Part shown: piece by piece, positions 27,873 through 64,000 of the stretch | Layout: the number at the start of each line of letters is the position of its first letter | Numbering within the stretch: the stretch's first letter is position 1 | Assembly: GCF_900090315.1 (NCBI RefSeq) | Contig: NZ_FMHZ01000002.1 | Span: 6,604,501-6,668,500, forward strand | From: Micromonospora citrea | GTDB taxonomy: Bacteria > Actinomycetota > Actinomycetes > Mycobacteriales > Micromonosporaceae | Reading direction: 5' to 3' | DNA length: 64,000 nucleotides | The notes under the pieces: generated by a model | The model's input: only the letters and a program-made list of their open reading frames with translations | Told to the model about the DNA's origin: nothing | The model's database searches: none | Made by a program: the position numbers and the translations under genes

Positions 27873-29016
27873 TCGGCACCTCCAGGGAGACCAGGGTGCC
27901 GGCGCCGGGACGGGACGTCACGACCGCCCGCCCGCCGACCCGCGCCACGCGCTGCGCTATGGACTGCGACACCCCGCGCCGGTGCGGCGGCACCCCCTCC
28001 GGCGCGAAGCCCCCGCCCCGGTCGGAGACCTCCACCAGGATCCGGCCACCCGCCGGCCTGACCACCAGTTCCGCGGTGTCGACGCCGGAATGGCGGGCCA
28101 CGTTCGTCAGCGCCTCCCGGACCGCCGCGCTGACCGCCGTGGCCCGGACCGCCGGCATCGGCAGGGCCGCCGGCGCGCGCACGTCCACCGCGACCGGGGC
28201 GTGCCGCGCCACCTGGGCCAGCAGCCGTACGAGGTCCGTGTCGCCGCCGGGAAGGCCGGGCTGCCCGGCCAGGACCTCCAGGTCGCGGGCGGCCTGCTCG
28301 GCCAGCCACGGCTCGGTGCCGTCGACCATGCGTGCGCCTACCGCGAGCAGGGTGGCTGCCGCGGTGTCGTGCAGCACCGCCAGGTGCTCCCGCTCGTCCG
28401 CACGCCGGGCAGCCGCGACCGCCGCTTCGCGCCGGGCCCGTGCGCTGGCCGCGAGGGCGAGGTCGGCCTGTCGGGCCCCGGCCCGGACGAGCAGGAACAG
28501 CACCCTGGACAGGCCGGCCTCGGCGAAGGTCCACAGGCCGAGCGGAACGGTGCCCCACCAGGTGTCGGGCAGGGCGAGGGCGTTCCCGGCCAGGTGCGCC
28601 ACCACGACCGCGGCGGTCAGCAGCACGCCGCCGGCCGCGGTGGTGAGCCACTGGTGGGCGACGGCCGTGACCGACACGAGGGCGAGAACCCAGTTCGTGC
28701 TGTCCGCCACCGCGTCCGGGGGCACGGTCCACCGTTGGGTCAGGCACAGCAGCATGATCACCAGCGTGTCCGCGGGCAACAGCCAGCGCCGGGAGCTGAA
28801 GCGGGCGTACGCGACGGTCCAGGCGACGAGCCCGACGACCGTGCCGACGACCAGGGCACGCCGGTCCGGGCCGGCCTGGAACAGCGCGGCGCCGCTCACG
28901 CAGCACAGCGCCGTGGCGCGCATGACCACGGCGTACCGTCGGCCCAACCGGTGCGACTCGCGTTCGGTGGCACCTGCGGGCCCGGGCGGTGCCGGCCCCG
29001 GTCGCCACGGATTCAT
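27865..29016 (-). CDS. Sensor histidine kinase (NarL/HisKA_3 type)
   Basis: A 383-residue kinase. About five membrane helices fill the first half with no large outer domain. The dimerisation/phosphoacceptor helix contains HLAVLHDTAAATLLA, where His of LHDT is the likely phosphate site. The ATPase domain has the N-box EALTNVARHSG and DRGGGF. It is the first gene of a three-gene operon with a kinase-like protein and a LuxR-type regulator. Confidence 0.82.
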   Translation of the reverse strand: MNPWRPGPAPPGPAGATERESHRLGRRYAVVMRATALCCVSGAALFQAGPDRRALVVGTVVGLVAWTVAYARFSSRRWLLPADTLVIMLLCLTQRWTVPPDAVADSTNWVLALVSVTAVAHQWLTTAAGGVLLTAAVVVAHLAGNALALPDTWWGTVPLGLWTFAEAGLSRVLFLLVRAGARQADLALAASARARREAAVAAARRADEREHLAVLHDTAAATLLAVGARMVDGTEPWLAEQAARDLEVLAGQPGLPGGDTDLVRLLAQVARHAPVAVDVRAPAALPMPAVRATAVSAAVREALTNVARHSGVDTAELVVRPAGGRILVEVSDRGGGFAPEGVPPHRRGVSQSIAQRVARVGGRAVVTSRPGAGTLVSLEVPSG

Positions 29017-45294: not shown

Positions 45295-45702
45295 TCAGCC
45301 CGCCGGGATCAGCTCCCGCAGCAGCCGTTCCACCCGGGCCCGGATCTCGTCGCGGATCGGGCGGACGGCCTCGACGTCCTGGCCGGCCGGGTCGGCCAGC
45401 TTCCAGTCCTCGTAGCGCTTGCCGGGAAAGACCGGGCAGGCGTCGCCGCAGCCCATGGTGACGATGACGTCGGAGGACTCGGCGGTGGCGTACTCCAGCA
45501 GCTTCGGGGACTGGTCGCTGATGTCGACACCGACCTCCCGCATCGCCTCGACGGCGGCCGGGTTGACGGTCCCGGCCGGCGCCGAACCGGCGGAACGCAC
45601 CTCGACGGCGTCGCCCGCGAGGTGGCGCAGCCAGCCGGCGGCCATCTGCGAGCGGCCGGCGTTGTGCACGCAGACGAACAGGACACTGGGCTTGTCGCTC
45701 AC
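45295..45702 (-). CDS. arsC: Arsenate reductase, LMW-PTP type
   Basis: A 135-residue arsenate reductase. The P-loop FVCVHNAGRSQ carries nucleophile Cys11 and Arg17, and Cys85 and Cys89 (TMGCGDACP) are the resolving thiols. It reduces arsenate to arsenite with thioredoxin or mycothiol. It lies 14 bases downstream of the Acr3 gene in the same direction. Confidence 0.92.
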   Translation of the reverse strand: MSDKPSVLFVCVHNAGRSQMAAGWLRHLAGDAVEVRSAGSAPAGTVNPAAVEAMREVGVDISDQSPKLLEYATAESSDVIVTMGCGDACPVFPGKRYEDWKLADPAGQDVEAVRPIRDEIRARVERLLRELIPAG

Positions 45703-45716
45703 GGCGGTGTTCCCTC

Positions 45717-46826
45717 TCAACGCGGGGCGGGTTCGGTCGGCCGGCCCGGTGCCGGCGACGGGAAGAAGCGGCGGCGCGCCCACAGCGAGACGTAGACGAG
45801 GGCGACCAGGACCGGCACCTCGATCAGCGGCCCGACCACGCCCGCCAGGGCCTGCCCGGAGGTGACCCCGAAGGTGCCGATCGCGACGGCGATGGCGAGC
45901 TCGAAGTTGTTGCCGGCGGCGGTGAAGGCGAGCGTCGTGGTGCGTGCGTAGCCGAGGCCGACCGCCCGGCCGAGGAGGTAGGAGCCGGCCCACATCACGG
46001 CGAAGTAGACCAGCAGCGGCAGGGCGATGCGTACCACGTCCAGCGGGCGGTCGGTGATCGCCTCGCCCTGCAGGGCGAACAGGACGACGATGGTGAACAG
46101 CAGCCCGTGGAGCGCCGTCGGGCCGATTCTCGGCAGGAACCGGCGCTCGTACCAGTCGCGGCCCCGGGCCCGCTCGCCGAGGCGACGGCTGAGGTAGCCG
46201 GCCAGCAGCGGGATGCCGAGGAAGATCAGCACGTTGGCCGCGATGTCCCAGCCGGAGACGGCCAGCGCGGCGCCCTCCAGCCCCAGCCAGTCCGGCAGGA
46301 CGGCGAGATAGAACCAGCCGAGCAGGCCGAACGCGAGCACCTGGAACACGGAGTTCAGCGCGACGAGCACCGCGGCGGCCTCCCGGTCGCCGCAGGCCAG
46401 GTCGTTCCAGATGATCACCATGGCGATGCAGCGGGCCAGCCCGACGATGATCAGCCCGGTGCGGTACTCCGGCTGGTCGGCCAGGAAGACCCAGGCCAGG
46501 GCGAACATCAGCGCGGGCCCGACGAGCCAGTTCAGCAGCAGCGAGGAGACCAGCAGCCGCCGGTCGCCGGTGACCGTGTCGAGGCGGTCGTAGCGGACCT
46601 TGGCCAGCACCGGGTACATCATGACCAGCAGGCCGAGGGCGATCGGCAGCGAGATGCCGCCGACCTGCACCGCGTCGAGCGCGGTGTCCAGGCCCGGCAC
46701 CAGCCGGCCGAGCAGGAGGCCGGCGGCCATCGCGAGGCCGATCCAGACCGGCAGGAAGCGGTCGAGGCGGGACAGGCGTCCCACCACGGTGGCGGCGGCC
46801 GGATCGTCGAGGGTGGTGGTGCTCAC
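45717..46826 (-). CDS. acr3: Acr3 family arsenite efflux transporter
   Basis: A 369-residue membrane protein with ten hydrophobic segments. The Acr3 hallmark RCIAMVIIWNDLACGDREAAA contains the essential Cys133 and a second Cys145; GNNFELAIAVAIGTFG is another family motif. It exports arsenite as an anion. GTG at 46826 has GGGAG 4 bases upstream. It forms a unit with the ArsR-ArsC fusion upstream and arsC downstream. Confidence 0.93.
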   Translation of the reverse strand: MSTTTLDDPAAATVVGRLSRLDRFLPVWIGLAMAAGLLLGRLVPGLDTALDAVQVGGISLPIALGLLVMMYPVLAKVRYDRLDTVTGDRRLLVSSLLLNWLVGPALMFALAWVFLADQPEYRTGLIIVGLARCIAMVIIWNDLACGDREAAAVLVALNSVFQVLAFGLLGWFYLAVLPDWLGLEGAALAVSGWDIAANVLIFLGIPLLAGYLSRRLGERARGRDWYERRFLPRIGPTALHGLLFTIVVLFALQGEAITDRPLDVVRIALPLLVYFAVMWAGSYLLGRAVGLGYARTTTLAFTAAGNNFELAIAVAIGTFGVTSGQALAGVVGPLIEVPVLVALVYVSLWARRRFFPSPAPGRPTEPAPR

Positions 46827-46870
46827 GGGGCTCCCGTTCGGGTCGTGGGTGTCGGCGTGTCGGTGGCGGG

Positions 46871-47554
46871 TCACGGCGACGTCGCGGGGGTGACGGCGGG
46901 GACGAGCCGGTCGACCCGGGCCTCCAGCTCGGCGTACGCCGCCTCGAAGGCCTCGTCGGTGTCGACGCGGGCGGGGTCCGGCACCGACCAGTGCAGCCGC
47001 GGTCGGAGCGGGCCGGTGAGGTCCTCGTGGGCGTTGTCGCAGACGGCGACGACCAGGTCCTCGGGGCGGACGACGTCGTCGACGTGGGCGGTGCCGGCCG
47101 CGGCGAGGCGCAGGCCGTGGCGGCGGGCCACCGCGACGGCGCGCGGGTGCACCCGGGGCGCCGGGGTGGTGCCCGCCGAGGCGGTCGGGACGTGCGTGCG
47201 CCGCGTCCACAGGGCGGCGGCGAGCTGGGAGCGGGCGGAGTTGTGGGTGCAGACGAAGACCACCCGGCGCGCCTCGTCCAGCGGCGGCGGGGTCAGCGTC
47301 GCCAGCGCGTCCGGGCGCAGCCGCAGGTAGCTGCGGCGCCGGTCGCCCTCGGACCGCGAGCGGGCGACCAGGCCGGCGTCGGTGAGCACCCTGACGTGGT
47401 GGGCGACGAGGTTGGTGGTCAGGCGCAGCGCCTGCGCGATCTCGCCGGGGGAGGCGTCGCCCAGCAGCAGCGCGTCGACGATCGCGAGGCGCGCCGGTTC
47501 GCCGAGGGCGGCATGGATCCGGGCGCGCGCCGCCAGGGAAGCTTCAATGTCCAT
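46871..47554 (-). CDS. ArsR-ArsC fusion: metalloregulator joined to arsenate reductase-like domain
   Basis: A 227-residue two-domain protein. Residues 1-85 form an ArsR-type winged helix (PARLAIVDALLLGDASPGEIAQAL, then LTTNLVAHHVRVLTDAGLV). Residues 97-227 form a low-molecular-weight phosphatase/ArsC domain with an intact P-loop (FVCTHNSARSQ, Cys102 to Arg108). The ArsC part would reduce arsenate or sense it, the ArsR part represses. An operator overlaps the start region. It heads the operon with acr3 and arsC. Confidence 0.9.
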   Translation of the reverse strand: MDIEASLAARARIHAALGEPARLAIVDALLLGDASPGEIAQALRLTTNLVAHHVRVLTDAGLVARSRSEGDRRRSYLRLRPDALATLTPPPLDEARRVVFVCTHNSARSQLAAALWTRRTHVPTASAGTTPAPRVHPRAVAVARRHGLRLAAAGTAHVDDVVRPEDLVVAVCDNAHEDLTGPLRPRLHWSVPDPARVDTDEAFEAAYAELEARVDRLVPAVTPATSP

Positions 47555-47557
47555 TGA

Positions 47558-47573
47558 CTCAACAATTGCTGAG
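47558..47573. promoter_or_regulatory. Imperfect palindrome, likely operator of the fusion ArsR
   Basis: CTCAACAATTGCTGAG is a 16-base palindrome with one mismatch, beginning 4 bases from the ATG of the ArsR-ArsC gene. ArsR/SmtB sites are typically such AT-centred repeats. Confidence 0.55.
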
Positions 47574-47702
47574 CTATCTGACGGATGTCAAGCGGCGGTG
47601 TCGCGTCGCACTCCCGCCGGGCCGCCCCGGCCCGTGCAGCAGAGGGCTGGTGGGGCCGGCGCGTCCCGCGCGGGCCGGCGGAGCGCCCGGGGAAGGCCCG
47701 GG

Positions 47703-48038
47703 TCAGCAGCAGGTCAGCAGGTAGGCGCGCAGGTCCGCCAGGGCGGCGAGCACCCCGTCGCGGTCCGCCCGGTAGTACACCGTCTTGCCGGCGCGCCGCG
47801 AGGTCACCACCCGGCCGCGACGCAGCAGGGTGAGCTGTTGCGACGCCGTGGCCTGGCTGATTCCCGCCCGCTCGGCCACCTCGCCGACGGACAGCTCGGC
47901 GCCCTGCGCGAAGAGCATCATGATCCGCTGCCGGGTCGGGCTGCCCAGGGCCCTGAGGAACTCCTGGGTGGCCGGCCCCAGCCCGCTCTCGGGGCCGGCG
48001 GACGGATCGGTCGCCGGGGTGGGCGTCGCCTGGTCCAT
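47703..48038 (-). CDS. ArsR/SmtB-type repressor
   Basis: A 111-residue winged-helix protein (SPTRQRIMMLFAQG, LSVGEVAERAGISQATASQQLTLLRRGRVV) that ends in two Cys (LLTCC), a possible metalloid or metal site. I chose ATG at 48038 because GGAAGG stands 8 bases before it, rather than the Met-rich start at 48077. It is divergent from a flavoprotein monooxygenase gene across a region with an inverted repeat. Confidence 0.85.
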   Translation of the reverse strand: MDQATPTPATDPSAGPESGLGPATQEFLRALGSPTRQRIMMLFAQGAELSVGEVAERAGISQATASQQLTLLRRGRVVTSRRAGKTVYYRADRDGVLAALADLRAYLLTCC

Positions 48039-48059
48039 GCCCCAAGCCTTCCGTACCAT

Positions 48060-48095
48060 CATCATATTGTCATTCAACGAAAAGCCAATATGATG
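48060..48095. promoter_or_regulatory. Inverted repeat between divergent arsR and monooxygenase genes
   Basis: CATCATATT (48060-48068) is the exact complement of AATATGATG (48087-48095), 18 bases apart. It covers the promoter region of both genes and is the likely operator for the ArsR encoded beside it. Confidence 0.6.
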
Positions 48096-48100
48096 CTCGG

Positions 48101-49204
48101 GTGACCATCCCTTCCGAACCCGTGATCATCGTGGGCGGCGGCCAGTCGGGGCTCGCCGCCGCCCGCGCGGCCCTGGCCGCCCGGCTCCGCCCCGTCGTTC
48201 TGCACGCCGGGGCCGAGCCCGTCGGCTCCTGGCCCGACTACTACGACAGCCTCACCCTGTTCTCGCCCGCCCGGCACAGCGCCCTGCCGGGCCTCGCCTT
48301 CGGCGGGGCGGATCCCGACCGCTACCCGACCCGGGACGAGGTCGTCGACTACCTCCGCCGGTACGCCGACGGCACCGACGCCGAGATCCGCTCCGGCGTG
48401 CGCGTCACGGCGGTGCACGCGCGCCCCGGCGGCGGCTACCTCGTACGCACCGACGCCGGGGACGAGATCGCCGCGGCGGGCCTGGTGGCCGCCAGTGGCT
48501 CCTTCGGCAACCCGTACGTGCCCACCCTGCCCGGTCGGCGCGACTACGCCGGCGAGCTGCGGCACGTCGCCTCCTACCGGCGCCCCGAGCCGTACGCGGG
48601 CCGGCGGGTGGTGGTCGTCGGCGCGGGCAACTCCGCCGTGCAGGTCGCCCACGAGTTGGCTGCCCGGTCCACCGTCACCCTCGCCACCCGAGGGCCGGTC
48701 CGTTACCTGCCGCAGCGGGTCCGGGGTCGGGACCTGCACCACTGGCTCGACGTCACCGGCGCGGACCGGCTGCCCCGGCGGCTGATCGCACCCCTCGTCC
48801 GGCGTCCGGGCGTGCTGGACGACGGCACGTACCGCGCGGCCATCGCCGCCGGTCTGCTCGACCGTCGGGACATGTTCACCGCCTTCACCCCGGAGGGCGT
48901 CGTCTGGGCCGACGGCGTCGTCGAGCCGGTCGACGCGGTGATCTTCGCCACCGGGTACCGGCCGGCCCTGGGCTATCTCGCCCCGCTGGGCGTGCCGCGG
49001 GCGCGGGGCGGCGTGTCCACGTCCCATCCCGGCCTGGTGTACCTCGGGCTGGAGTTCCAGCGTTCGTTCGCGTCCAACACGCTGCGCGGGGTGGGCCGCG
49101 ACGCCGCCCACGTGGTCGCGGCGCTGGCCGGGCGGTTGTCCGGCGCGGGCCGTCGGTCAGGCGCGGGCGGCGCGGCGCGCCGGGCGCGGGTGCGCGGCGT
49201 CTGA
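48101..49204 (+). CDS. FAD/NADPH flavoprotein monooxygenase (ArsO-like)
   Basis: A 367-residue flavin monooxygenase-like protein. FAD motif GGGQSGLAAARAAL, NADPH motif VVVVGAGNSAVQVAHEL and the FMO-type ATGY motif near residue 285 (FATGYRPALGYLAPLG) are present. ArsO-like monooxygenases are common next to arsR genes; their substrate is unproven. The GTG at 48101 lies just after the operator. Confidence 0.75.
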   Translation: MTIPSEPVIIVGGGQSGLAAARAALAARLRPVVLHAGAEPVGSWPDYYDSLTLFSPARHSALPGLAFGGADPDRYPTRDEVVDYLRRYADGTDAEIRSGVRVTAVHARPGGGYLVRTDAGDEIAAAGLVAASGSFGNPYVPTLPGRRDYAGELRHVASYRRPEPYAGRRVVVVGAGNSAVQVAHELAARSTVTLATRGPVRYLPQRVRGRDLHHWLDVTGADRLPRRLIAPLVRRPGVLDDGTYRAAIAAGLLDRRDMFTAFTPEGVVWADGVVEPVDAVIFATGYRPALGYLAPLGVPRARGGVSTSHPGLVYLGLEFQRSFASNTLRGVGRDAAHVVAALAGRLSGAGRRSGAGGAARRARVRGV

Positions 49205-49233
49205 CGGGGCCGCCCGCCGCCACCCGAGGTGGG

Positions 49234-49327
49234 GCGTGGGTCGGCCGGCGGTCACCGGTCGGGGGCCGGGTCCGCGGTGGGCGTGGGTCGACCGAGGGTC
49301 ACCGGTCGGGGGCCGGGTCCACGGTCA
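49234..49327 (+). repeat. 47-bp tandem duplication across an arsR 3' end
   Basis: 49234-49280 and 49281-49327 are near-identical copies (GTGGGTCG...CCGGTCGGGGGCCGGGTCC core). The second copy contains the last codons of the arsR gene that ends at 49299, so the duplication copied the gene's tail downstream of its stop. Confidence 0.75.
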
Positions 49328-49676
49328 GCAGGGCGGCGAGCTGGCGCAGGACGGCGGGACGGGCCCGGTAGTAGACCCAGGTGCCCCGGCGCTCGGCGTC
49401 CACCAGGCCCACCTCGCGCAGCGTCCGCAGGTGGTGCGAGATGGTCGGACCGCTGACGTCGAAGGCGGGCGTGAGGTCGCAGACGCACGCCTCTCCGCCG
49501 TCGGCCGACGCGATCATCGACATCAGGCGCAGCCGGATCGGGTCGCCGAGGGCCTTGAACGCCGGGGCCAGTACGACCGCGGTCTGTGCCGGGACCGGCC
49601 GGCGGGCCAGCGGCGGGCAGCAGGGGGTGTCGGCGGAGAGGTCGACCGGACCCGGGGTGGTCGCTTGCTTCGACAT
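49299..49676 (-). CDS. arsR: ArsR repressor with CxC arsenite site
   Basis: A 125-residue ArsR. The recognition helix region is DVSGPTISHHLRTLREVGLV and the inducer site is the Cys pair in EACVCDLT, as in classical As(III)-sensing ArsR. An extra Cys pair (TPCCPP) lies in the N-terminal arm. It is divergent from a second arsR at 49805 across a perfect 11-bp inverted repeat. Confidence 0.9.
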   Translation of the reverse strand: MSKQATTPGPVDLSADTPCCPPLARRPVPAQTAVVLAPAFKALGDPIRLRLMSMIASADGGEACVCDLTPAFDVSGPTISHHLRTLREVGLVDAERRGTWVYYRARPAVLRQLAALLTVDPAPDR

Positions 49677-54092: not shown

Positions 54093-54152
54093 ATGATCGC
54101 GTTTGCCGAGTGCTGCACGCTGCCCATGAGCAGGTCAGCCGTCGCGCGCTGA
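54093..54152 (+). CDS. 19-codon small ORF at the head of the NRPS/PKS operon
   Basis: ATG to TGA reads MIAFAECCTLPMSRSAVAR. A strong GGGGGG ribosome-site-like run ends 4 bases before its ATG, and its stop lies one base before the ATG of the NRPS/PKS gene, whereas that gene has no clear site of its own. It could be a translation-coupling leader, a Cys-Cys attenuator peptide or a substrate/scaffold peptide for the two LanB-like enzymes. Its short length makes the call uncertain. Confidence 0.45.
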   Translation: MIAFAECCTLPMSRSAVAR

Positions 54153-54153
54153 C

Positions 54154-57100
54154 ATGACAACATCGACGGTAATCAACCGATTCGGCGCGGTCGCCGCCCA
54201 TCGACCCGGCCAGTCGGCAGTTCTCGGCGAGGGCGCCCCGCTCAGCTACGCCGCCCTCGCCGGCGCCGCCGGCGGACACGCCGCCGCGCTCGCCTCGGCC
54301 GGCTGCCGGCCCGGCGACCGGGTCGCCCTGCTCACCGGGCACGGGTCCGCCACCATCGCCGCCATCCTCGGCACCCTCGCGGCCGGGTGTGCGTACGTGC
54401 CGCTGGACCCGGGATTCCCGGAGCGGCGGCTGGGGCACATGCTCGCCGCCGCCGAGGTCGGCGTCGTCCTCTGTGGAGCCGAGCACGTCGAGCTGGCCCG
54501 CCGGCTCACCGCCGACCGGCCGGCAGTGCGGGTGCTGACCGTCGACGACGTCCCGGCCGCGCCGCTGCGGCCCGTGCCCGTCGACCCCGACGCGCTGGCG
54601 TACGTGCTGTTCACCTCCGGCTCCACCGGCGTGCCGAAGGCGGTCGGGCAGACCCACCGCAACCTGCTGCACGTGGTGGACAACCAGATCGCCACCCTCC
54701 AGATCGGAGCGGACGACCGGCTAAGCCTGCTCGCGTCGTTCAGCTTCGACGCGGCGATCCCCGACCTCTACCCGGCGCTGCTCGCCGGGGCCGCCGTCGT
54801 CCCGGTGGAGCTGCGCCGGCACGGCCTCGCCCACGCCGTCGAGCAGCTCGCCCGGCACCGGGTCACCGTCTACCACTCCACCCCGACCGTCTACCGCTTC
54901 CTGCTCGACACCCCCGGCCCCCGCCTCGACCGGGTGCGGGTCGTGCTGCTCGGCGGCGAGCAGGCCACCCACGCCGACGCGGTACGCGGGCGGGACCGGT
55001 TCGCCCCCGACTGCGTGCTGGTCAACGGCTACGGCGCCACCGAGATGACCTTCGCCGCCCGGTACGCGCTGCCGCTCGCCGACGCCGACCCCGCCGCCAC
55101 CGGGCCGCTGCCCGTCGGCACGGCCCTGCCCGGGTACGAGCTGCGCCTCGCCGCCGACGGCACGGGGGCCGACGGGACCGGGGAGATCGTGGTGCGCAGC
55201 CGGCACCTCGCCCCCGGCTACCTCGGCCAGGACAGCGACCGGTTCTCCGTGGACCCCGACGGGGTGCCCATCTACCGGACGGGGGACCTCGGCGCGCGGC
55301 TGCCCGGCGGTGAGCTGGTCTGCCTCGGCCGGCTGGACCGGCAGGTCAAGGTGCGCGGGTTCCGGGTCGAGCTGACCGAGATCGAGACGGCGCTCGCCGA
55401 CCAGCCCGGCGTCGCCGGGGTCCGCGCCATCGCCCGCGACGGCGAGCTGCTCGCGTACGCCCGACGGGCCGGCGGCGAGCTGGACCCGGCGGCCCTGCGC
55501 GACGCCCTCGCCCGGCGGCTGCCGGACTACGCGCTGCCGCGCGCGGTCGTCGTGGTCGACGAGTTCCCGCTGACCGTCACCGGCAAGATCGACGAGCGGG
55601 CGTTGCCCGACCCGGCCCGGGCCGTGCCCGCCGGGGCGGCGCCGACCACCCCCACCGAGCGGATCGTGCACGACATCTGGTGCGACGTGCTCGGGCGCGA
55701 CGCCGTCGGCCGCACCGACAGCTTCTTCGACGTCGGCGGCCAGTCCCTGCTGCTCGGTCGCGTGCAGCAGCGGCTCGCCGAGCGGTTCGGGGTGCGGCTG
55801 CCCATGCTCCGCCTCTTCGAGCACCCGACCGTGGCCGCCCAGGCCCGGCTGCTCGACGCCCCGGCCGGGCCGGCCCGCGCGCCGGTCGTGCCCGCCCCCG
55901 TCGCGCCGGCGACCGCCGCCCGGGAGTACACCGGCGACGAGATCGCCGTGGTCGGCCTCGCCGGCCGGTTCCCGGGCGCGCCCGACCTCGCCACCTTCTG
56001 GTGGAACCTCTGCGCCGGGGTCGACTCCGTCCACGACCACACCGACGAGGAGCTGGCCGCCCTCGGCGTCGGCCCCGGCCTGCGCGCCGACCCCCGGCAC
56101 GTCAAGGCGGCCGGCCGCCTCGACGGCGTGGCCGACTTCGACGCCGAGTTCTTCTCCTTCGGCGCCGACGAGGCCGCCCGCACCGACCCGCAGCACCGCA
56201 TCTTCCTCGAGACCGCCTGGGAGGCGCTGGAGGACGCCGGGCACGACCCGGCCCGCTTCCCCGGCCTGGTCGGCGTCTACGCCGCCACCTCCGCCAACCG
56301 GTACTTCCACTTCCACCTGATGGACAACCCGGCAGTGGTCGGCGACGTCGACCCCGACGACTGGGAGGCCCGGCTCCTCGGCCGGCAGTTCACCGACCAC
56401 CTGCCCGGGCAGGTCGCCTACCGGCTGGGCCTGACCGGCCCGGCGGTCGCCGTGCAGAGCGCCTGCTCCAGCTCGCTGGTCGCGGTCTGCCTCGCCGCGC
56501 AGAGCCTCGCCGACTACCAGTGCGACATCGCCCTGGCCGGCGGCGTCAACGTCACCTGGCCGCGCTACCGGCACACCCCCGGCGGCCTGGCCTCCCCGGA
56601 CGGCCGCTGCCGCGCCTTCGACGAGGCGGCCGCCGGCGCCGGCTTCGGCTCCGGGGTCGGCGTGGTCGCGCTGCGCCGCCTCGCCGACGCCCAGGCCGAC
56701 GGCGACCGGATCTACGCGGTGCTGCCCGGCTGGGCCGTCACCAACGACGGCGCCGACCGCGCCGGCTACGCCGTGCCCGGGCCGGCCGGGCAGGCCGCCG
56801 CCGTCGCCGGCGCGCTCGCCGCGGCCGAGGTCGCCCCCGGCGAGGTCCGTTTCATCGAGGCCCACGGCAGCGGTACGCCGCTCGGCGACGCCATCGAGGT
56901 CGCCGCGCTGCACGAGGTGTACGCGGGCGCCGGCCCCGCCGAGAGCTGCGCGCTCGGCTCGGTGAAGACCAACATCGGTCACCTCGACGCGGCCGCCGGC
57001 ATCGCCGGGCTGATCAAGGCGGTGCTCGCCGTGCAGCACGGCGTCATCCCGCCGAACCTGCACTTCACCCGCCCGCACCCGGAGGTCGACCTGGCCGCCG

Positions 57101-57645
57101 GCCCGTTCTACGTGCCGACCAAGGTGCGGGACTGGCCCGAGGCGGCGCGCCGGGTGGCCGGGGTCAGCTCGTTCGGGCTGGGCGGCACGAACGCGCACGT
57201 GGTGGTCGAGCAGCCGCCACCGGCGGAGCCGGTCGACGGCGGGGACGCGCCCGCGTACCTGCTGCCCGTGTCGGCGCGGACCCCGATGGCGCTGCGGGCG
57301 GCGCTGACCCGGCTGCGGCAGCACCTCGCCGGGGCCGCCACGGCGCTGGCCGAGGTGGCCGCCACCCTCGCGCTGGGGCGGCGCGCCTTCGGCTGCCGGG
57401 CCGCCGTGGTGGCGGCCGATGCGGCGGGCGCCGTCGCCGCGCTGGACGAGCTGCTCGCCACCGACGCCCGGCTGGCCGGCGACCCCGGCGAGCTGCGCGA
57501 GCTGGCGGCGGCCTGGATCGCCGGCGGGGACGTGGACTGGACGGCGCTGCACCCCGAGGGCGCGGTCCGACGCACCGGGCTGCCCACCTACCCGTTCCAG
57601 CGTCAGCGGTACTGGATCGACCCCCCTCAGAAAGGCGCGAGGTGA
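54154..57645 (+). CDS. Hybrid NRPS-PKS: adenylation, carrier, ketosynthase (no acyltransferase)
   Basis: A 1163-residue megasynthase. Adenylation domain 1-485: A3 LFTSGSTGVPK at 152, A5 NGYGATE, A8 RGFRVELTEIE, catalytic Lys478. Carrier 500-565 with the phosphopantetheine Ser531 (GGQS). Ketosynthase 594-1040: Cys771 (SACSSS), His904 (EAHGSGT), His943 (NIGH). The rest matches the KS-AT linker joined directly to the post-AT linker (LPTYPFQRQRYW), with the AT body missing. It would load an amino acid and extend it with a malonyl unit supplied in trans. By hand the A-domain pocket reads D-A-P-H-L-G-G-F-A-K; I do not predict a substrate. Confidence 0.88.
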   Translation: MTTSTVINRFGAVAAHRPGQSAVLGEGAPLSYAALAGAAGGHAAALASAGCRPGDRVALLTGHGSATIAAILGTLAAGCAYVPLDPGFPERRLGHMLAAAEVGVVLCGAEHVELARRLTADRPAVRVLTVDDVPAAPLRPVPVDPDALAYVLFTSGSTGVPKAVGQTHRNLLHVVDNQIATLQIGADDRLSLLASFSFDAAIPDLYPALLAGAAVVPVELRRHGLAHAVEQLARHRVTVYHSTPTVYRFLLDTPGPRLDRVRVVLLGGEQATHADAVRGRDRFAPDCVLVNGYGATEMTFAARYALPLADADPAATGPLPVGTALPGYELRLAADGTGADGTGEIVVRSRHLAPGYLGQDSDRFSVDPDGVPIYRTGDLGARLPGGELVCLGRLDRQVKVRGFRVELTEIETALADQPGVAGVRAIARDGELLAYARRAGGELDPAALRDALARRLPDYALPRAVVVVDEFPLTVTGKIDERALPDPARAVPAGAAPTTPTERIVHDIWCDVLGRDAVGRTDSFFDVGGQSLLLGRVQQRLAERFGVRLPMLRLFEHPTVAAQARLLDAPAGPARAPVVPAPVAPATAAREYTGDEIAVVGLAGRFPGAPDLATFWWNLCAGVDSVHDHTDEELAALGVGPGLRADPRHVKAAGRLDGVADFDAEFFSFGADEAARTDPQHRIFLETAWEALEDAGHDPARFPGLVGVYAATSANRYFHFHLMDNPAVVGDVDPDDWEARLLGRQFTDHLPGQVAYRLGLTGPAVAVQSACSSSLVAVCLAAQSLADYQCDIALAGGVNVTWPRYRHTPGGLASPDGRCRAFDEAAAGAGFGSGVGVVALRRLADAQADGDRIYAVLPGWAVTNDGADRAGYAVPGPAGQAAAVAGALAAAEVAPGEVRFIEAHGSGTPLGDAIEVAALHEVYAGAGPAESCALGSVKTNIGHLDAAAGIAGLIKAVLAVQHGVIPPNLHFTRPHPEVDLAAGPFYVPTKVRDWPEAARRVAGVSSFGLGGTNAHVVVEQPPPAEPVDGGDAPAYLLPVSARTPMALRAALTRLRQHLAGAATALAEVAATLALGRRAFGCRAAVVAADAAGAVAALDELLATDARLAGDPGELRELAAAWIAGGDVDWTALHPEGAVRRTGLPTYPFQRQRYWIDPPQKGAR

Positions 57646-60600
57646 ACTGGTTCCTCTCCGCCGGCCGCCGTGACCCGGCACCGGTGCAACTGTTCTGCCT
57701 GCCCTACGCCGGCGGCGGCGCGAGCGTCTTCCGGCGCTGGCAGGACGGGCTCGGCGCGGATGTCGAGGTGCTGCCGGTGCAGCTGCCGGGGCGGGAGAAC
57801 CGGATCAGCGAGGACCCGGAGTTCCGGGTGGTCGACGTCGCCTCCGCCATCGCCGACCGGGCCCGCGGCCCGTACGCGATCTACGGCCACTCGATGGGCG
57901 GCCGGGTCGGCTTCGAGGTGGTCCGCGAGCTGCGCCGCGCCGGCCGCCCGCTGCCGCTGCGGCTCTACGTCGGCGGTGCCCGGGCCCCGCACGTGACCGC
58001 GCCCAGCCTCTTCGACGGGCTGTCCCGGGTGGACGACGACGAGCTGCTGCGCCGTCTCGGCGCCGGCGGCGGCCTGCCCGCCGAGCTGCTGGCACACCCC
58101 GAGCTGGTCGAGCTGCTGCTGCCGTTGCTGCGTGCCGACTTCGGGCGGGTCGACAGCTACCGCTACGCCCCCGACGAGCCGCTGCCGGTGCCGATCGTGG
58201 CGTTCAGCGGCCGGCACGACCGCGCCGTCACCCGCGAGCACAGCGACGCCTGGCGCGAACACACCGCCGCCGGCTTCACCCTGTGCGAGATCGACGGCGG
58301 GCACTTCTTCCTCAACGACCGGCTGCCCGAGCTGCTCGCCGCGATCCGCACCGACCTCGACGACGCCGTGACCGCCGGCCTTGACGTGACCGCCGGCCTC
58401 GACGTGACCGCCGGCCTCGACGTGACCGCCGGCCTCGACGGGGCCGCCGGCCTTGACGGGACCGCGACCGCCGGCTTCGACGGGGCCGCCGGCCCGGTCG
58501 ACGCCGACGACCGGGCGACGGTCGCCGCCGACGGGCCGGCGGGCGGGCACCGGGTGCCGCTCGGCGACACCGGCTGGTCGGTGTGGCGGGACGCCATCCT
58601 GCGCACCACCGGCTTCCCCGCCGACGGGCTGACCATGCTCTCCGCCCCGCAGGCCGCGGCCGCCGCCGACGAGCTGCTCGCCACCGGCGACGGCGCGGAA
58701 CGCTACGACAAGGAGGTCGCCGAGGCCCTGACGGCGGCCGGGCGGCGGCTCACCGAGCTGGCCGCCGACCCGCTGCTGCGGGAGGCGGTCACCTGGCAGA
58801 ACCGGGGCGCCCTGGTCGCGCTCGACGGCCTGGCGCGCGGCGGCCCCGACCCGGCCCGCAACGTGCGGCGCCGCGACCGGGAGCGCGCCCTGCTGAAGTA
58901 CTGGCAGCGCTACTGCGGCAAGAACGAGACGGTCGGCTTCTTCGGGCCGAGCTGCTGGGTCACCCTCGACCCGGCGCGCCCGGAGACCGCCGACGTGCGT
59001 CCCGGCCCGGGCCTGACCCGACGCCGGTGGGTGTGGTTCGAGTCCTGGGCCCTCAGCGCCTACGCCGACCGCGTCGGCCGGGACCCGGCGGTGCGCGGCT
59101 GGTGGGCGCCGATGCTCTGCCCGCAGCTCAGCCTCGCCGACCGCACGGTCCGCCGGCCGGGCCGCCCGCCGGTGTCGCTCACCCCCGTCGAGGCGGCGCT
59201 GCTCGCCGCCGCCGACGGCCGGCGCCCGGCCCGCGACCTCGTCGCCGACCCGGCGATCGGGCTGCGCCGCCCCGAGGACGGCTACGCGCTGCTGGACCGC
59301 CTGGTCGAGCGCGAGCTGGTCACCTGGGACGCGGGGCTGCCGGTCAGCCCGGACGCGGAGGAGGTGCTGCTGCGGCGGATCGAGGCGATCGGCGACGAGC
59401 CCGCCCGGCGGGCCGCCCGGGCCGGCTTCGACCGGCTCCGCGCCGCCCGCGACGCGGTGGCCGAAGCGGCCGGCGACCCGGAGCGGCTGCGCACCGCCCT
59501 CGACGCGCTCGACGCGACCTTCACCGAGCTGACCGGACAACCGCCGCGCCGCCGCGCCGGGCAGATGTACGCCGGCCGCACCCTCTGCTACGAGGACACC
59601 GCCCGCGACCTCGACGTGGTCTTCGGCCGGCCCATGCTGGACCGGATCGCCGCCCCGCTCGCGGTGCTGCTCCAGGCGGCCCGCTGGCTGGTCGACGCGC
59701 TGGAGCGGGCGTACGACGCGGCCTTCCGGGAGCTGCACGACGAGCTGCGCGCCGAGGCGGGCGGCGCCCCGGTGGCCCTGTCCGACCTGTGGTTCCTGGC
59801 CCAGGGCCTGTTCTGGGGCGACGGGACCCGGCCGGTCGACGTGGTCGCCGCCGAGTTCGCCGACCGCTGGGCCGGGCTGTTCGGCCTCGCCACGCTGTCA
59901 CCCGGGACGACCGAGGTCCGGCTGCCCGTGGCCGACCTGGCCGCCCGCGTCGCCGAGGTCTTCCCGGCCGCGCGGCCGGCCTGGCCCAACGCCCGGCTGC
60001 ACAGCCCCGACCTGCAGATCTGCGCCGCCGACGCGGAGGCGCTGGCGCGCGGCGACTACACCGTGGTCCTCGGCGAGCTGCACGCCGCCTGGGCGTCCTT
60101 CGACTGTCAGGTCTTCACCCCGTCGCACCCCGACGTGGGCCGGCTGCGCGACGCGCTCACCGAGGACCTGGGCGAGCGGCGGATCCGGCTGCTCTTCCCG
60201 ACCGACTGGCCCCGGCGCACCAGCCGGGTCGCCGAGTCGCTGGTCGGGCCCACCGACCGGCAGCTCGCCTTCGCGCCGGCGCCCGGCGCCGACCCGGACC
60301 GGGTGCTGCCCACGGTCGACCTGACCGTCACCGACTCCGACGGCCGGCTTGTCGCCACCGGCCCGGACGGGCAGCGCTGGACGCTCACCGAGATCTTCTC
60401 CCCGCTGCTCAGCGCCCACGCCGTCGACGGATTCAAGCTGGTCGCCGCCGCGCCGTACACGCCCCGCGTCACGGTCGGCGAGCTGGTCGTGGCGCGGCAG
60501 ACCTGGCGCACCACGGTCGGCGCGAGCGGGCTCGCCGATGTCACCAGCGAACGCGACCGCTTCCTCGCGGTCCGGGACTGGCGCCGCCGCCTCGGCCTGC

Positions 60601-60857
60601 CCGAGCAGGTGTACGTCAAGCTCGGCACCGAGACCAAGCCCTGCTTCGTGGACCTGAGCAGCCCGGCGTTCGGCAGCATGTTCTGCGCGATGGTGCGGGC
60701 CGCCCGCACCGACGGTGGCGACGACGCCTCGCTCGTGGTCAGCGAGATGCTGCCCACCGTGGAGGACGCCTGGGTGCCCGACGCGGCCGGCCGACGCTAC
60801 TTCAGCGAGCTGCGGCTGCACATCGTGGACGCCGACGAACGGGAGGACTCCCGATGA
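57642..60857 (+). CDS. Fusion of type II thioesterase and LanB-type lantibiotic dehydratase domain
   Basis: A 1071-residue fusion in one continuous frame. Residues 1-240 are a type II thioesterase (PYAGGGASVFRRW, GHSMGG with Ser84, Asp193, His221). Residues 242-300 are a repetitive linker with DVTAGL units. Residues 303-1071 match Lant_dehydr_N-type LanB proteins (tRNA-dependent glutamylation domain): RYCGKNETVGFFGP, AGQMYAGRT and TKPCFVDLSS. No SpaB_C elimination domain follows, so this resembles peptide aminoacyl-tRNA ligases more than full dehydratases. GTG overlaps the NRPS stop. Confidence 0.85.
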   Translation: MNWFLSAGRRDPAPVQLFCLPYAGGGASVFRRWQDGLGADVEVLPVQLPGRENRISEDPEFRVVDVASAIADRARGPYAIYGHSMGGRVGFEVVRELRRAGRPLPLRLYVGGARAPHVTAPSLFDGLSRVDDDELLRRLGAGGGLPAELLAHPELVELLLPLLRADFGRVDSYRYAPDEPLPVPIVAFSGRHDRAVTREHSDAWREHTAAGFTLCEIDGGHFFLNDRLPELLAAIRTDLDDAVTAGLDVTAGLDVTAGLDVTAGLDGAAGLDGTATAGFDGAAGPVDADDRATVAADGPAGGHRVPLGDTGWSVWRDAILRTTGFPADGLTMLSAPQAAAAADELLATGDGAERYDKEVAEALTAAGRRLTELAADPLLREAVTWQNRGALVALDGLARGGPDPARNVRRRDRERALLKYWQRYCGKNETVGFFGPSCWVTLDPARPETADVRPGPGLTRRRWVWFESWALSAYADRVGRDPAVRGWWAPMLCPQLSLADRTVRRPGRPPVSLTPVEAALLAAADGRRPARDLVADPAIGLRRPEDGYALLDRLVERELVTWDAGLPVSPDAEEVLLRRIEAIGDEPARRAARAGFDRLRAARDAVAEAAGDPERLRTALDALDATFTELTGQPPRRRAGQMYAGRTLCYEDTARDLDVVFGRPMLDRIAAPLAVLLQAARWLVDALERAYDAAFRELHDELRAEAGGAPVALSDLWFLAQGLFWGDGTRPVDVVAAEFADRWAGLFGLATLSPGTTEVRLPVADLAARVAEVFPAARPAWPNARLHSPDLQICAADAEALARGDYTVVLGELHAAWASFDCQVFTPSHPDVGRLRDALTEDLGERRIRLLFPTDWPRRTSRVAESLVGPTDRQLAFAPAPGADPDRVLPTVDLTVTDSDGRLVATGPDGQRWTLTEIFSPLLSAHAVDGFKLVAAAPYTPRVTVGELVVARQTWRTTVGASGLADVTSERDRFLAVRDWRRRLGLPEQVYVKLGTETKPCFVDLSSPAFGSMFCAMVRAARTDGGDDASLVVSEMLPTVEDAWVPDAAGRRYFSELRLHIVDADEREDSR
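58368..58500 (+). repeat. 18-bp in-frame repeats in the thioesterase-LanB linker
   Basis: GTGACCGCCGGCCTCGAC, with one base changed in the first copy, occurs four times, then degenerates into GGGGCCGCCGGC-type units. Each unit encodes DVTAGL-like six-residue steps, so the frame is kept. Such repeats form flexible linkers and vary in number between strains. Confidence 0.85.
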
Positions 60858-63181
60858 GCGAGCGTCAGCGAGTGCACCACCGGATCCCGCTCGGCGACAC
60901 CGGCTGGTCGGTGTGGCGCGACGTCGTCCTGCGTACCGCCGGCTTCCCGGCGGCCGGGCTGGCCGCCTTCGCCGCGCCCGACGCGGCGGCGGCCGCCGAC
61001 GCCGTGCTCGCCGGTGAGGACGCCGCCGAGCTGTTCGACAAGACCTTCGCGGTGGCACTGGCCGACGGCTCCGCCCAGGCCAACGAGATCGCCGCCGATC
61101 CGCTGCTGCGCGAGGCGGTCACCTGGCAGAACCCGGAGATGCTGATCGCGCTGGACGGCCTGCTGCGCACCGACCCGACGGTGCGCAACGTCCGGCGACG
61201 CAAGCGTGAGCTGAGCCTGCTGCGCTACTGGCAGCGCTACTGCGGCAAGGCCGAGACGATCGGCTTCTTCGGCCCGGTCTGCTGGGGCCGGCTCGACCCC
61301 GACGAGCCCGCCACCCGGCTGCGCCCCGGGCCGGCGCTGGTGTCCCGGCGCGAGGTCCACTTCGAGGCGTGGGCGCTGATCGCGTACGCCGACCGGCTCG
61401 CCGACGACCTGGCGGTGCGGCGCTGGTGGGCGCCGGCGCTGCCGCCGCACCTGAGCCTGTCCGACCGGCTGGTCACCCGGCCGCTGCTGCCACCGACCGA
61501 GCTGACCGCCGTGGAGGCCCGGCTGCTGGCCGCCTGCGACGGACGCACCCCCGCGGTGACGCTGGTGGAGCGGCTGCTGGCCGGCGGGGAGACCGGGCTG
61601 CGCAGCGCCGACGACGCCTACCTGCTGCTCGACCGGCTGGTCGACCGGAACCTGCTGACCTGGGACGCCGGCCTGCCCGTCAGCCCCGAGGCCGAGCGGG
61701 TGCTCGCCGAGCGCATCGACGCCATCGGCGACGCGCCGGTCCGCGCCGAGGCGGCGGCCGCCTTCGACCGGCTGCGCGCGGCGCGCGACGCGGTGGCCGC
61801 GGCGGCCGGCGACCCGGACCGGCTCGGCGCCGCCCTCGCCGCGCTGAACGCCGAGTTCACCGCCGTCACCGGCCGGCCCGCCACCCGCCAGGCCGGGCAG
61901 ATGTACGCCGGCCGCACGGTGCTCTACGAGGAGACCGCCCGCGACCTGGACTGCACGGTCGGCTCCCGGGTGCTGGACGCGCTGGCCGAGCCGCTGGCGA
62001 TCGTGCTGACGGCCGCGCGGTGGCTGACCGCCGAGGTCGGCGCCGCCGGCGAACGGCTCTTCGCGGAACTGCACGCCGAGCTGCGCGGCGACGGGCCGGT
62101 GCGGCTGGCCGACGTGTGGGCCCTGGCCCAGGGGCTGCTGCTCGCCCCGGACGGCCCGATCGCCCGGGCCGGCGCCGGGCTCACGACCCGCTGGGCGGAG
62201 CTGATCGGCCTGGACTCGGTGGCCCCCGGGCAGACCGAGCTGCGGCTGCGCGGTGCCGACCTGGCCGAGCGGGCCCGCGTCCTGTTCGCCGCCGACCGCC
62301 CCGGCTGGCCGTCGGCCCGCATCCACAGCCCCGACGTGCAGATCGCCGCCGCCGGGCTGGACGCGCTCAACCGGGGCGACTTCCTGCTCGTCCTCGGCGA
62401 GCTGCACCCGGCGTACGTGCCGTTCGACAGCGCGGTGCTTACCCCGTTCCACCCCGACCAGGCGGCGCTGCGGGCGGCGCTGGACGCGGAGCTCGGCCCG
62501 GCCCGGACCCGGGTGCTCTACCCGGAGAGCTTCCCGCGCACGACCACCCGCATGACGTACGCCCTCAACGGGCCCCGGGACCGCCAGTTCGGCATCGACA
62601 CGGCACGGGGTGCCGACGTCGACCGGCTGGTCCGCGCCACCGAGGCGCGGGTGGAGCACGACGGCGACCAGTGGCTGGCGGTGCTGCCCGACGGCACCCG
62701 CTGGCCGCTGATGGAGATCTTCGCGAACCTGCTCGGCGCGTTGCTGCTGGACAGCTTCAAGCTCCTCGCGCCGGCGGCGCACACGCCCCGGATCTCCATC
62801 GACCGGCTGGTCGTGGCCCGGCGGACGTGGCGGACGACGGTGGCGGAGACCGGCCTGGCCGGCGTCACCGGCGAGGCCGAGCGGTTCCTCGCCGTGCGCC
62901 GGTGGCGGGCGCGTCTCGGGCTGCCCGAGCGGGTGTTCGTCAAGGTGGGCACCGAGATCAAGCCCTGCTACGCCGATCTCACCGCCCCGCTGCACGCCCA
63001 GTCCCTCTGCGCCATGGTCGACGCCGCCGCGAAGAGCGGCGCCGACGTCACCGTGACGGTGAGCGAGCTGCTGCCGGACCCGGCGGACGCCTGGGTGACC
63101 GACGAGCGGGGGCGCGGCTACGTCAGCGAGCTGCGGATGCAGATCACCGATCCAGTGAGCTACCGGGGAGAGAACGGGTGA
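60854..63181 (+). CDS. Free-standing LanB-type (lantibiotic dehydratase/PEARL-like) protein
   Basis: A 775-residue LanB-like protein, a clear paralogue of the LanB part of the preceding fusion: both begin GDTGWSVWRD, and share RYWQRYCGK-ET-GFFGP, AGQMYAGRT, TWRTTV and GTE-KPC. It too lacks the elimination domain. LanB glutamylation domains use Glu-tRNA; PEARL homologues add amino acids from aminoacyl-tRNA to peptide ends. It may do so on a carrier-bound intermediate or a small peptide. ATG overlaps the fusion stop. Confidence 0.85.
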   Translation: MSERQRVHHRIPLGDTGWSVWRDVVLRTAGFPAAGLAAFAAPDAAAAADAVLAGEDAAELFDKTFAVALADGSAQANEIAADPLLREAVTWQNPEMLIALDGLLRTDPTVRNVRRRKRELSLLRYWQRYCGKAETIGFFGPVCWGRLDPDEPATRLRPGPALVSRREVHFEAWALIAYADRLADDLAVRRWWAPALPPHLSLSDRLVTRPLLPPTELTAVEARLLAACDGRTPAVTLVERLLAGGETGLRSADDAYLLLDRLVDRNLLTWDAGLPVSPEAERVLAERIDAIGDAPVRAEAAAAFDRLRAARDAVAAAAGDPDRLGAALAALNAEFTAVTGRPATRQAGQMYAGRTVLYEETARDLDCTVGSRVLDALAEPLAIVLTAARWLTAEVGAAGERLFAELHAELRGDGPVRLADVWALAQGLLLAPDGPIARAGAGLTTRWAELIGLDSVAPGQTELRLRGADLAERARVLFAADRPGWPSARIHSPDVQIAAAGLDALNRGDFLLVLGELHPAYVPFDSAVLTPFHPDQAALRAALDAELGPARTRVLYPESFPRTTTRMTYALNGPRDRQFGIDTARGADVDRLVRATEARVEHDGDQWLAVLPDGTRWPLMEIFANLLGALLLDSFKLLAPAAHTPRISIDRLVVARRTWRTTVAETGLAGVTGEAERFLAVRRWRARLGLPERVFVKVGTEIKPCYADLTAPLHAQSLCAMVDAAAKSGADVTVTVSELLPDPADAWVTDERGRGYVSELRMQITDPVSYRGENG

Positions 63182-64000
63182 CCGACATCCTGTCCATCAG
63201 CGCCGTCCACGGGGAGACCCTGCCGTGGCCGGACGCGACCCTGGCCGAGCTGATCGCCGCCCAGGCCGCCCGGACCCCGGACGCGGTCGCCGTGCGCCAG
63301 TGGGACACGCGCCTGACCTACGCGGAGCTGCTGGGGCGGGCGGCCGGGGTGGCCGCGGCGCTGCGCGACCGCGGCGTCGGCCGGCAGAGCCGGGTCGGCG
63401 TCTGCGGGGCCCGCAACCCCGACCTCGTGGCGACCGTGCTCGGCGTGCTGCTCGCCGGCGGCTGCTACGTGCCGCTCGAGCCGGGCGGCCCCCGCCGGCG
63501 GCTGCGGGAGATCGCCGCCGACGCGGGGGTGTCCGTGGTGGTCGGCGACGCCGCCGTGGCAGAGTTCGGCGACGTGCCGGGCGTCGAGGCGCTCGGCCTG
63601 CCCGGGCCGGCGCCGCTGGCCGCCTGCCCCGCCCGCCCCGGCGACCCCGCGTACGTCCTGTTCACCTCGGGCTCCACCGGCCGGCCCAAGGGGGTGCTCA
63701 CCACCCACCGCAACGTGGTCGAGTTCGTCACCGGCTGCGCCGCGATGACCGGCGCGGACGCGGGCGTGCGCAGCCTCGGCATCGCCTCGCTCGGCTTCGA
63801 CGCGGCCACCATGGACCTCTTCGTCCCGCTGCTGCTCGGCGGCGCCGTCCAGCTCCTCGGCGCCGACGACCGGGCCGACCCCGTCCGGCTGGCCCGGTTC
63901 ATCGCCGCGCACGAGGTGAACTGGGGCTTCATCACCCCGACCGTGCTGTCCGTGCTCGACCCGGCCGAGCTGCCGGCCTGGCGGGTCGTGCTCTGCGGCG
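63178..64000 (+). CDS. NRPS adenylation domain protein, 5' part
   Basis: Open to the window end (274 codons seen). GTG at 63178 overlaps the LanB-like stop (GTGA). The protein begins almost at once with an adenylation domain: A1 LTYAELLGRAA, A2 LLAGGCYVPLEPG, A3 YVLFTSGSTGRPKGV and a pocket region LGFDAATMDLFVP. There is no condensation domain before it, so loading, or a partner that supplies bond formation in trans, is likely. Confidence 0.9.
   Translation, partial: MTDILSISAVHGETLPWPDATLAELIAAQAARTPDAVAVRQWDTRLTYAELLGRAAGVAAALRDRGVGRQSRVGVCGARNPDLVATVLGVLLAGGCYVPLEPGGPRRRLREIAADAGVSVVVGDAAVAEFGDVPGVEALGLPGPAPLAACPARPGDPAYVLFTSGSTGRPKGVLTTHRNVVEFVTGCAAMTGADAGVRSLGIASLGFDAATMDLFVPLLLGGAVQLLGADDRADPVRLARFIAAHEVNWGFITPTVLSVLDPAELPAWRVVLCG

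Follow-up and report, generated by a model that had tools for sequence, protein, structure and literature searches.

Peptide aminoacyl-tRNA ligases (PEARLs), which are described both from ribosomal pathways and from biosynthetic assembly lines, provide the background for the gene cluster analyzed here, a nine-gene hybrid of nonribosomal peptide synthetase (NRPS) and polyketide synthase (PKS) genes that encodes two PEARL-like proteins of the LanB type and begins near the end of a 64,000-nucleotide stretch of the Micromonospora citrea genome (G000:C2:6604501-6668500, genome size 7.2 Mb; hereinafter, the window). In the NRPS-PKS cluster of threopeptin (sna) from Stackebrandtia nassauensis, the LanB-annotated protein SnaE is needed to join Thr to a free carboxylate, which is left free by a ureido-forming condensation (C) domain (ureido chain reversal); the use of tRNA and ATP by SnaE was inferred there from homology (Yu and van der Donk, 2024, PMC11212132; this and the other papers are cited from excerpts of their text). 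The same source counts about 2,000 NRPS/PKS clusters with LanB-annotated genes, some of these fused to a thioesterase (TE), and names the motif EHHxxHDG as the mark of ureido-forming C domains, apparently both sufficient and necessary (PMC11212132). Since the 2024 work on SnaE already describes an NRPS-PKS cluster in which amide formation depends on a PEARL (PMC11212132), the statement in the preliminary description of this DNA that such a chemistry is not known as described is not supported.

The sna cluster and the present one are alike in having a PEARL-like LanB among NRPS and PKS genes, no precursor peptide, one PKS module and an MbtH protein, and the separate TE of sna can be counted as a further likeness. 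By description rather than by sequence, sna differs in its single PEARL, in a protein with adenylation (A), carrier (T) and C domains arranged A-T-C(urea)-A-T with EHHLVHDG, in KS-AT-T (KS, ketosynthase; AT, acyltransferase) and in the lack of A-T-KS, whereas the present cluster has two PEARL-like proteins, one of them fused to a TE, A-T-C-T with LHHAVFDG, KS-AT-KR-DH-T (KR, ketoreductase; DH, dehydratase), the extra A-T-KS and more NRPS modules (PMC11212132). The PEARLs of ribosomal pathways, BhaB, TglB and AmmB2, are likewise LanB-type proteins without an elimination domain that show the order D, E-x-H, E-x-R at similar spacing; in contrast to their pathways, no gene for a ribosomal scaffold peptide was found between the genes of this cluster, and the assembly line has to supply the substrate (PMC11962472, PMC12945691). 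Lymphostin is similar in combining PEARLs with an NRPS-PKS hybrid but differs in its ribosomal scaffold peptide (PMC9505594; compared by the description in this review, not by sequence). In livipeptin, an aminoacyl-tRNA-dependent enzyme, the L/F-transferase tRUE, also cooperates with an NRPS and is proposed to act in place of a C domain; however, it belongs to an unrelated enzyme family, the NRPS lacks any C domain and release is reductive (PMC10548850). No L/F-transferase family was reported by Pfam in the nine proteins of the present cluster.

Prior descriptions of this architecture were sought in open-licence PMC papers. The orphan cluster pks/nrps-3 of Micromonospora sp. TP-A0316, listed in 2021 and described there as conserved in M. 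okii TP-A0468, has the architecture A/T-KS/DH, A/T-C/T, KS/ATm/KR/DH/ACP, C/Aasn/T, C/Aser/T-Te and is by this criterion identical to the present one, with a malonyl AT, Asn and Ser predicted and a pentapeptide with a polyketide moiety as the predicted product (PMC8698034); the M. okii genome carries p1 to p6 (L020). The account, as excerpted, deals with PKS/NRPS domains only, leaves two open reading frame numbers between the first two proteins unlisted and contains no mention of LanB that we saw. The cluster is real, conserved and ordinary in its single parts, a variant of the PEARL-NRPS theme.

The operon spans positions 54154-81955 in the numbering of the window, the end of which cuts through the cluster, and reading was extended past that end. 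In agreement with the preliminary description, Pfam identifies A-T-KS, TE-LanB, LanB and an NRPS that starts with an A domain (54154-57645, 57642-60857, 60854-63181 and from 63178), and the 4-base overlaps of consecutive genes are present at 57642, 60854 and 63178. Reading beyond 64000 with a listing of the domains, the check suggested there, brought out p4 to p9 in full, with two more C domains after that of p4 (C-A-T and C-A-T-TE-MFS). The complete gene order is A-T-KS, TE-LanB, LanB, A-T-C-T, KS-AT-KR-DH-T, TauD, MbtH, C-A-T, C-A-T-TE-MFS (Pfam), with 4-base overlaps at six of the eight gene junctions (among them the one at 66681, past the window), a 29-base gap between p5 and p6, and a 1-base overlap between p8 and p9. 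The features are as follows.

54154..57645, + strand: p1, NRPS-PKS protein A-T-KS, 1163 aa (Pfam: AMP-binding 13-357, AMP-binding_C 409-478, PP-binding 505-567, ketoacyl-synt 595-971, RhiE-like linker)
54190..55587, + strand: adenylation domain of p1, code DAPHLGGFA (Pfam and code reading)
55666..55854, + strand: carrier (T) domain of p1, GGQS site (Pfam and motif)
55936..57462, + strand: ketosynthase of p1 and post-KS linker (Pfam; KS residues C, H, H present)
57642..60857, + strand: p2, thioesterase fused to a PEARL-like LanB, 1071 aa (Pfam: Thioesterase 16-237, Lant_dehydr_N from 375)
57687..58352, + strand: thioesterase domain of p2, GHSMG (Pfam and motif)
58548..60854, + strand: PEARL-like domain of p2 (alignment with p3)
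60009..60083, + strand: putative ATP-site residues D790, E812-x-H814 of p2 (alignment columns; numbers counted by hand from the p2/p3 alignment)
60807..60815, + strand: putative ATP-site motif E1056-x-R1058 of p2 (alignment columns, counted likewise)
60854..63181, + strand: p3, stand-alone PEARL-like LanB, 775 aa (Pfam)
62333..62407, + strand: putative ATP-site residues D494, E516-x-H518 of p3 (alignment, 30/30 PEARL-like rows)
63128..63136, + strand: putative ATP-site motif E759-x-R761 of p3 (alignment, 30/30 PEARL-like rows)
63178..66684 (in the window to 64000), + strand: p4, A-T-C-T NRPS, 1168 aa (Pfam; C domain with LHHAVFDG)
66681-72161, past the window: p5, KS-AT-KR-DH-T (Pfam)
72191-73144, past the window: p6, TauD-family protein (Pfam)
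73141-73332, past the window: p7, MbtH (Pfam)
73329-76448, past the window: p8, C-A-T (Pfam)
76448-81955 (L010:10448-15955), past the window: p9, C-A-T-TE-MFS (Pfam)

In the domain common to both LanB proteins, 443 of 766 aligned columns are identical (58%). The residues D494, E516-x-H518 and E759-x-R761 (p3 numbering) are conserved throughout the 30 PEARL-like rows of the alignment, p2 and p3 included. Among the other LanB-family rows, Arg is absent and at most one of D, E and H is retained in 15 of 18, including the thiopeptide LanB of this genome; many of these rows are cut N-terminally by the locus, a single one (L001, the same gene as that of L009) was verified as a dehydratase, and L051 is possibly no LanB at all. 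The ATP-site residues of BhaB-C-Trp are D558, E575, H577, E813 and R815, of which E575 and H577 derive from AlphaFold3 models, and the TglB equivalents of three BhaB-C-Trp residues were shown to matter for phosphorylation (PMC11962472, PMC12945691); by order and rough spacing, not by direct alignment, the p3 residues match these five. Y125, R128 and K132 are found in 30/30 PEARL-like rows, and any one of them may correspond to R208, which together with Y205 contacts the tRNA 3′-end in BhaB.

The model of p3 matches the fold of LanB glutamylation domains, that of TbtB included, as would be expected of a PEARL, and keeps a stretch resembling RRE winged helices (about 190-272). Together with the Pfam match to Lant_dehydr_N, this would also fit an alternative in which p2 and p3 are dehydratases or glutamyl transferases that act on carrier-bound Ser/Thr or on an unseen ribosomal peptide, but the PEARL-type ATP-site residues stand against it, as does the genome-wide search for the elimination domain: Lant_dehydr_C (PF14028) gave two matches only, both at C2:457.9-459.6 kb, where they adjoin a thiopeptide-like LanB about 6.2 Mb from the cluster by coordinate, and none near p2 and p3. 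Furthermore, with nothing but 4-base overlaps and the 29-base gap at the five junctions between p1 and p6, no separate scaffold-peptide or precursor gene fits there, and the overlaps from p6 to p9 likewise leave no room for one (the search covered the junctions from p1 to p9, not the flanks). A lanthipeptide or dehydratase role was rejected because the elimination domain is missing nearby and the residues are of the PEARL type, and the broader alternative is very improbable. Given these residues, the lack of Lant_dehydr_C in the vicinity and the lack of room for a scaffold gene, amide formation with aminoacyl-tRNA, as surmised in the preliminary description, is the best reading of the sequences: p2 and p3 are very probably amide-forming ligases, not dehydratases, and PEARL chemistry can be assigned to both with considerable confidence. 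The comparison with enzyme families that it had called for gave a Pfam match to Lant_dehydr_N; the PEARL assignment itself was made from residues mapped by order and spacing.

All 14 named loci encoding a close relative of p3 belong to Micromonospora. The order from p1 to p6 is kept in 13 of them (L011-L023, which reach no further, two being cut by contig ends); in the 14th (L024, Micromonospora sp. ATCC 39149), the cluster is present as fragments and is either decayed or poorly assembled. Across 160 genomes of the genus and among the matches listed, a LanB-profile match (E 0.001, weak ones included) is found in 102, and a C domain of the p4 type (463 bits or more, against 374 for the next best match) occurs at 76 places in 68 genomes, G000 included. 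A PEARL-like gene lies within 12 kb of this C domain at 75 of the 76 places, with two or more entries at 55; the PEARL counts per locus are lower bounds from a limited number of candidates scored per genome. The exception belongs to G424, an assembly broken into about 780 pieces, in which the listed PEARLs are on a different contig from the C domain. As the gene order is kept in 13/14 loci and the PEARL stays near the C domain at 75/76 places, the p1-p6 arrangement is not due to chance.

The preliminary description pointed out that no C domain is seen between the two A-domain proteins and conjectured that the LanB-like enzymes form the missing bond. The former statement is correct as worded, but the second of these proteins is A-T-C-T, with the C domain (aa 601-1027, Pfam) just beyond the window end. 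The latter idea was rejected: three C domains are present, in p4, p8 and p9, so replacement of a missing C domain is doubtful, and it is the second A domain that is missing compared to relatives without a PEARL (see below).

A ureido-forming C domain, as in SnaE's pathway, was also considered. The motifs of the three C domains are LHHAVFDG (p4), VHHAVFDS (p8) and KHHIVGDG (p9), none of which is EHHxxHDG, and no site coding for EHHxxHDGW was found in this genome, with a pattern that requires Trp after EHHxxHDG (variants would escape) and that gave six sites in five of 296 genomes. One of the six, in G215, lies about 2.5 kb from a PEARL-like gene and is an instance of the published pairing. In the 43-row tree of C domains, the p4 type and the ureido type fall into separate clades (100/100 and 96/96, respectively). 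Ureido chain reversal was rejected by the published signature, given the different motifs, the absence of an EHHxxHDGW site and the separate clades. A less specific version, in which the p4 C domain, with its other motif, would make a head-to-head junction and a free carboxylate that the PEARLs extend, draws on the resemblance of T-C-T in p4 to T-C(urea)-A-T of SnaA (PMC11212132), on the long stem of the p4 clade, which would allow for an unusual reaction, and on the vicinity of a PEARL to this C domain at 75/76 places in the genus, among the matches listed. However, all 18 PEARL-bearing loci of the p4 C clade in which the motif was read show xHHAVFDG and none EHHxxHDG, and the clade also occurs without a PEARL at eight loci, so that this version is quite unlikely. 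Among 16 other PEARL loci, which lie outside the p4 C clade or are cut, EHHxxHDG is present within the DNA read only in G215, and PEARLs without a nearby ureido motif are accordingly not confined to this family; several of these 16 loci also sit among PKS and NRPS genes.

Relatives with and without a PEARL make an instructive comparison. When 394 genomes of the class were searched with the profile of the p4 C domain, with four candidates scored in each, 12 places exceeded 400 bits (next at 353), four of them PEARL-linked and eight, in seven genomes, PEARL-less. The domain arrangement is A-T-C-A-T in all eight PEARL-less loci of the p4 C clade (one cut by a contig end), and the DNA read around them contains no PEARL-like gene, no p1-type KS and no p1-type A-T gene. 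Conversely, the arrangement is A-T-C-T, without the second A domain, in the 26/26 PEARL-bearing loci read (the count omits or marks the fragmented loci L024 and G491 and the cut G259:C55), and these encode a p1-type KS and A-T, fused or as separate genes, wherever the DNA extends that far. In the relatives, domains were called from BLAST matches to the domains of this cluster, by which foreign domains would be missed. In the 22-row tree of A domains, with a small sampling of outgroups, the clade of the lost A domain is sister to that of the p1 A domain (100/99). The comparison suggests that p1 now prepares the unit that was formerly loaded directly on the second T domain, and that the PEARLs act between the two.

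We propose that a hybrid NRPS-PKS line has recruited two PEARL-type ligases that would act on a p1-based substrate, followed by a hand-over to p4 by the KS. Each PEARL would use ATP to phosphorylate a free carboxylate, join this to an aminoacyl-tRNA through the amino group of the latter and release the tRNA, and one or two amino acids would be supplied in this way from tRNA instead of by an A domain. Unlike that of SnaE, the carboxylate would probably not come from a ureido-forming C domain; most likely, it would lie on the unit activated by p1, either on the side chain of a carrier-bound amino acid or as an acid freed by the p2-fused TE. The KS would then pass the unit, either as it is or extended by two carbons, to the A-less second T domain of p4, and the chain would be completed by p4, p5, p8 and p9. 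For the proposal as a whole we see roughly even chances, and the p1-based substrate is put forward tentatively.

The code of the p1 A domain over the relatives read is D[AM][PT]H[LV]GGF[AV] and that of the lost A domain DPRH[LV]GAQ[VI]; as a tentative lead, the former may resemble a glutamate code and the latter an aminoadipate code, and a text search for these codes in open-licence PMC papers found no paper. With a side-chain carboxylate on an acidic amino acid held by the carrier, a PEARL would have its substrate without any chain reversal; alternatively, the carboxylate could stem from hydrolysis by the TE of p2. The KS, which is followed by a linker and for which the Pfam search of p1 reported no AT family, could catalyse a condensation of the p1 unit with malonate at the second T domain of p4, or merely transfer the unit. 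The variant in which the two PEARLs would extend a p1-loaded amino acid through its second carboxylate on the carrier, as a side branch built from tRNA, and the KS would deliver the branched unit to the A-less carrier, appears unlikely; if true, it would mean that an amino acid supply of the ribosomal type is wired into the middle of an NRPS, with an A-T-KS and PEARL cassette replacing one A domain.

Several observations weigh against the proposal. The acid-like reading of the p1 code depends on codes for which the text search found no paper, and the map to the BhaB residues on order and spacing without a PEARL reference sequence. The Cys-His-His set of the p1 KS is intact, which favours condensation over plain transfer. 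PEARL-less relatives, too, have a separate TE ahead of the NRPS, and the fusion of TE and PEARL in p2 therefore does not by itself imply that the former feeds the latter. Loci with A-T-C-T and loci with A-T-C-A-T fall into two clades (94/90 and 94/91), and the contrast between the 26 and the eight loci may therefore well reflect a single evolutionary switch. Finally, in G414 (L095) a PEARL sits beside A-T-C-A-T and KS-AT-KR-T, without a p1-type KS, and the second A domain groups with the lost one; its C domain falls outside the p4 clade, without an HHxxxDG motif, and it is a different system. Judging from its gene content, a PEARL need not replace the second A domain and can coexist with it, which lowers the odds of a p1-based substrate. 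The layout of G414 is nearer to that of sna than to that of this cluster.

A role after release was also considered: the NRPS-PKS product would be freed as an acid by the TE of p9 or p2 and would then be extended off the line at its C-terminus, by one or two amino acids, through the two PEARLs. Fusions of TE and PEARL occur in p2, G485, G443, G421 and G456, with adjacent genes in G315, G259, G151 and G451, and the PEARLs of ribosomal pathways act on peptide C-termini (PMC12945691). However, a purely post-release role leaves both the lack of the second A domain of p4 and the presence of the KS and A-T in the PEARL-bearing branch unexplained, PEARL-less relatives have a TE at the same place, and the G401-type cluster has no TE gene adjoining the PEARL, only a TE-like domain further upstream. 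Such an extension is possible but rather doubtful.

For the remaining steps, the A-domain codes are DLTKVGEVG in p8 and DVWHISLID in p9, which we take to be Asn-like and Ser-like, respectively. These readings agree with the Asn and Ser predictions for pks/nrps-3 (PMC8698034).

Other features of the cluster include the fusion of the p9 NRPS module to an MFS transporter, a TE-MFS fusion that is found again in relatives, and the nucleophile motif GHCG of the p9 thioesterase, in which Cys replaces Ser. The domain order of p5 puts the ketoreductase ahead of the dehydratase, an uncommon arrangement, and the linker between the thioesterase and the PEARL domain of p2 (58320-58550) contains a short tandem repeat rich in TAGLDV. 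A DUF6002 protein is encoded beside one-PEARL members of the p4-C-clade cluster family (L055:15564-16907, L148:6558-7913; Pfam on these two), with look-alikes by sequence start in G259, G151, G485, G443, G421, G456 and G451; none was seen upstream of p1 in the window. Another type of PEARL cluster, from two genera (L061:6647-12277, L091:5988-14034), has no large NRPS genes in the DNA read; L061 encodes OCD, PALP, PEARL and aminotransferase proteins (Pfam) along with small ACP, A and AT genes, and L091 is alike by gene order and sequence starts. The thiopeptide-like locus of the M. citrea genome (G000:C2:~456-463 kb; L009:1208-7612, - strand) encodes the LanB, two Lant_dehydr_C proteins, a ThcOx/nitroreductase protein and a short open frame with a Ser/Cys-rich end stretch. 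Elsewhere in the window, positions 45295-49676 hold, by eye, an arsenic-resistance-like group of small phosphatase/ArsC-like proteins, a transporter and ArsR-like regulators, and ARAGORN calls a tRNA-Ala of 96 bases at 28860-28955 (- strand), which overlaps the start of a predicted minus-strand gene and is possibly false.

The results argue against the label 'lantibiotic dehydratase' in these clusters. The occurrence of the family at 76 places in 68 of 160 Micromonospora genomes, among the matches listed, suggests that a ureido step is not a general requirement. Relatives with and without a PEARL, which differ by an A-T-KS-PEARL cassette versus one A domain, form a natural comparison that makes the substrate of NRPS-associated PEARLs directly testable.

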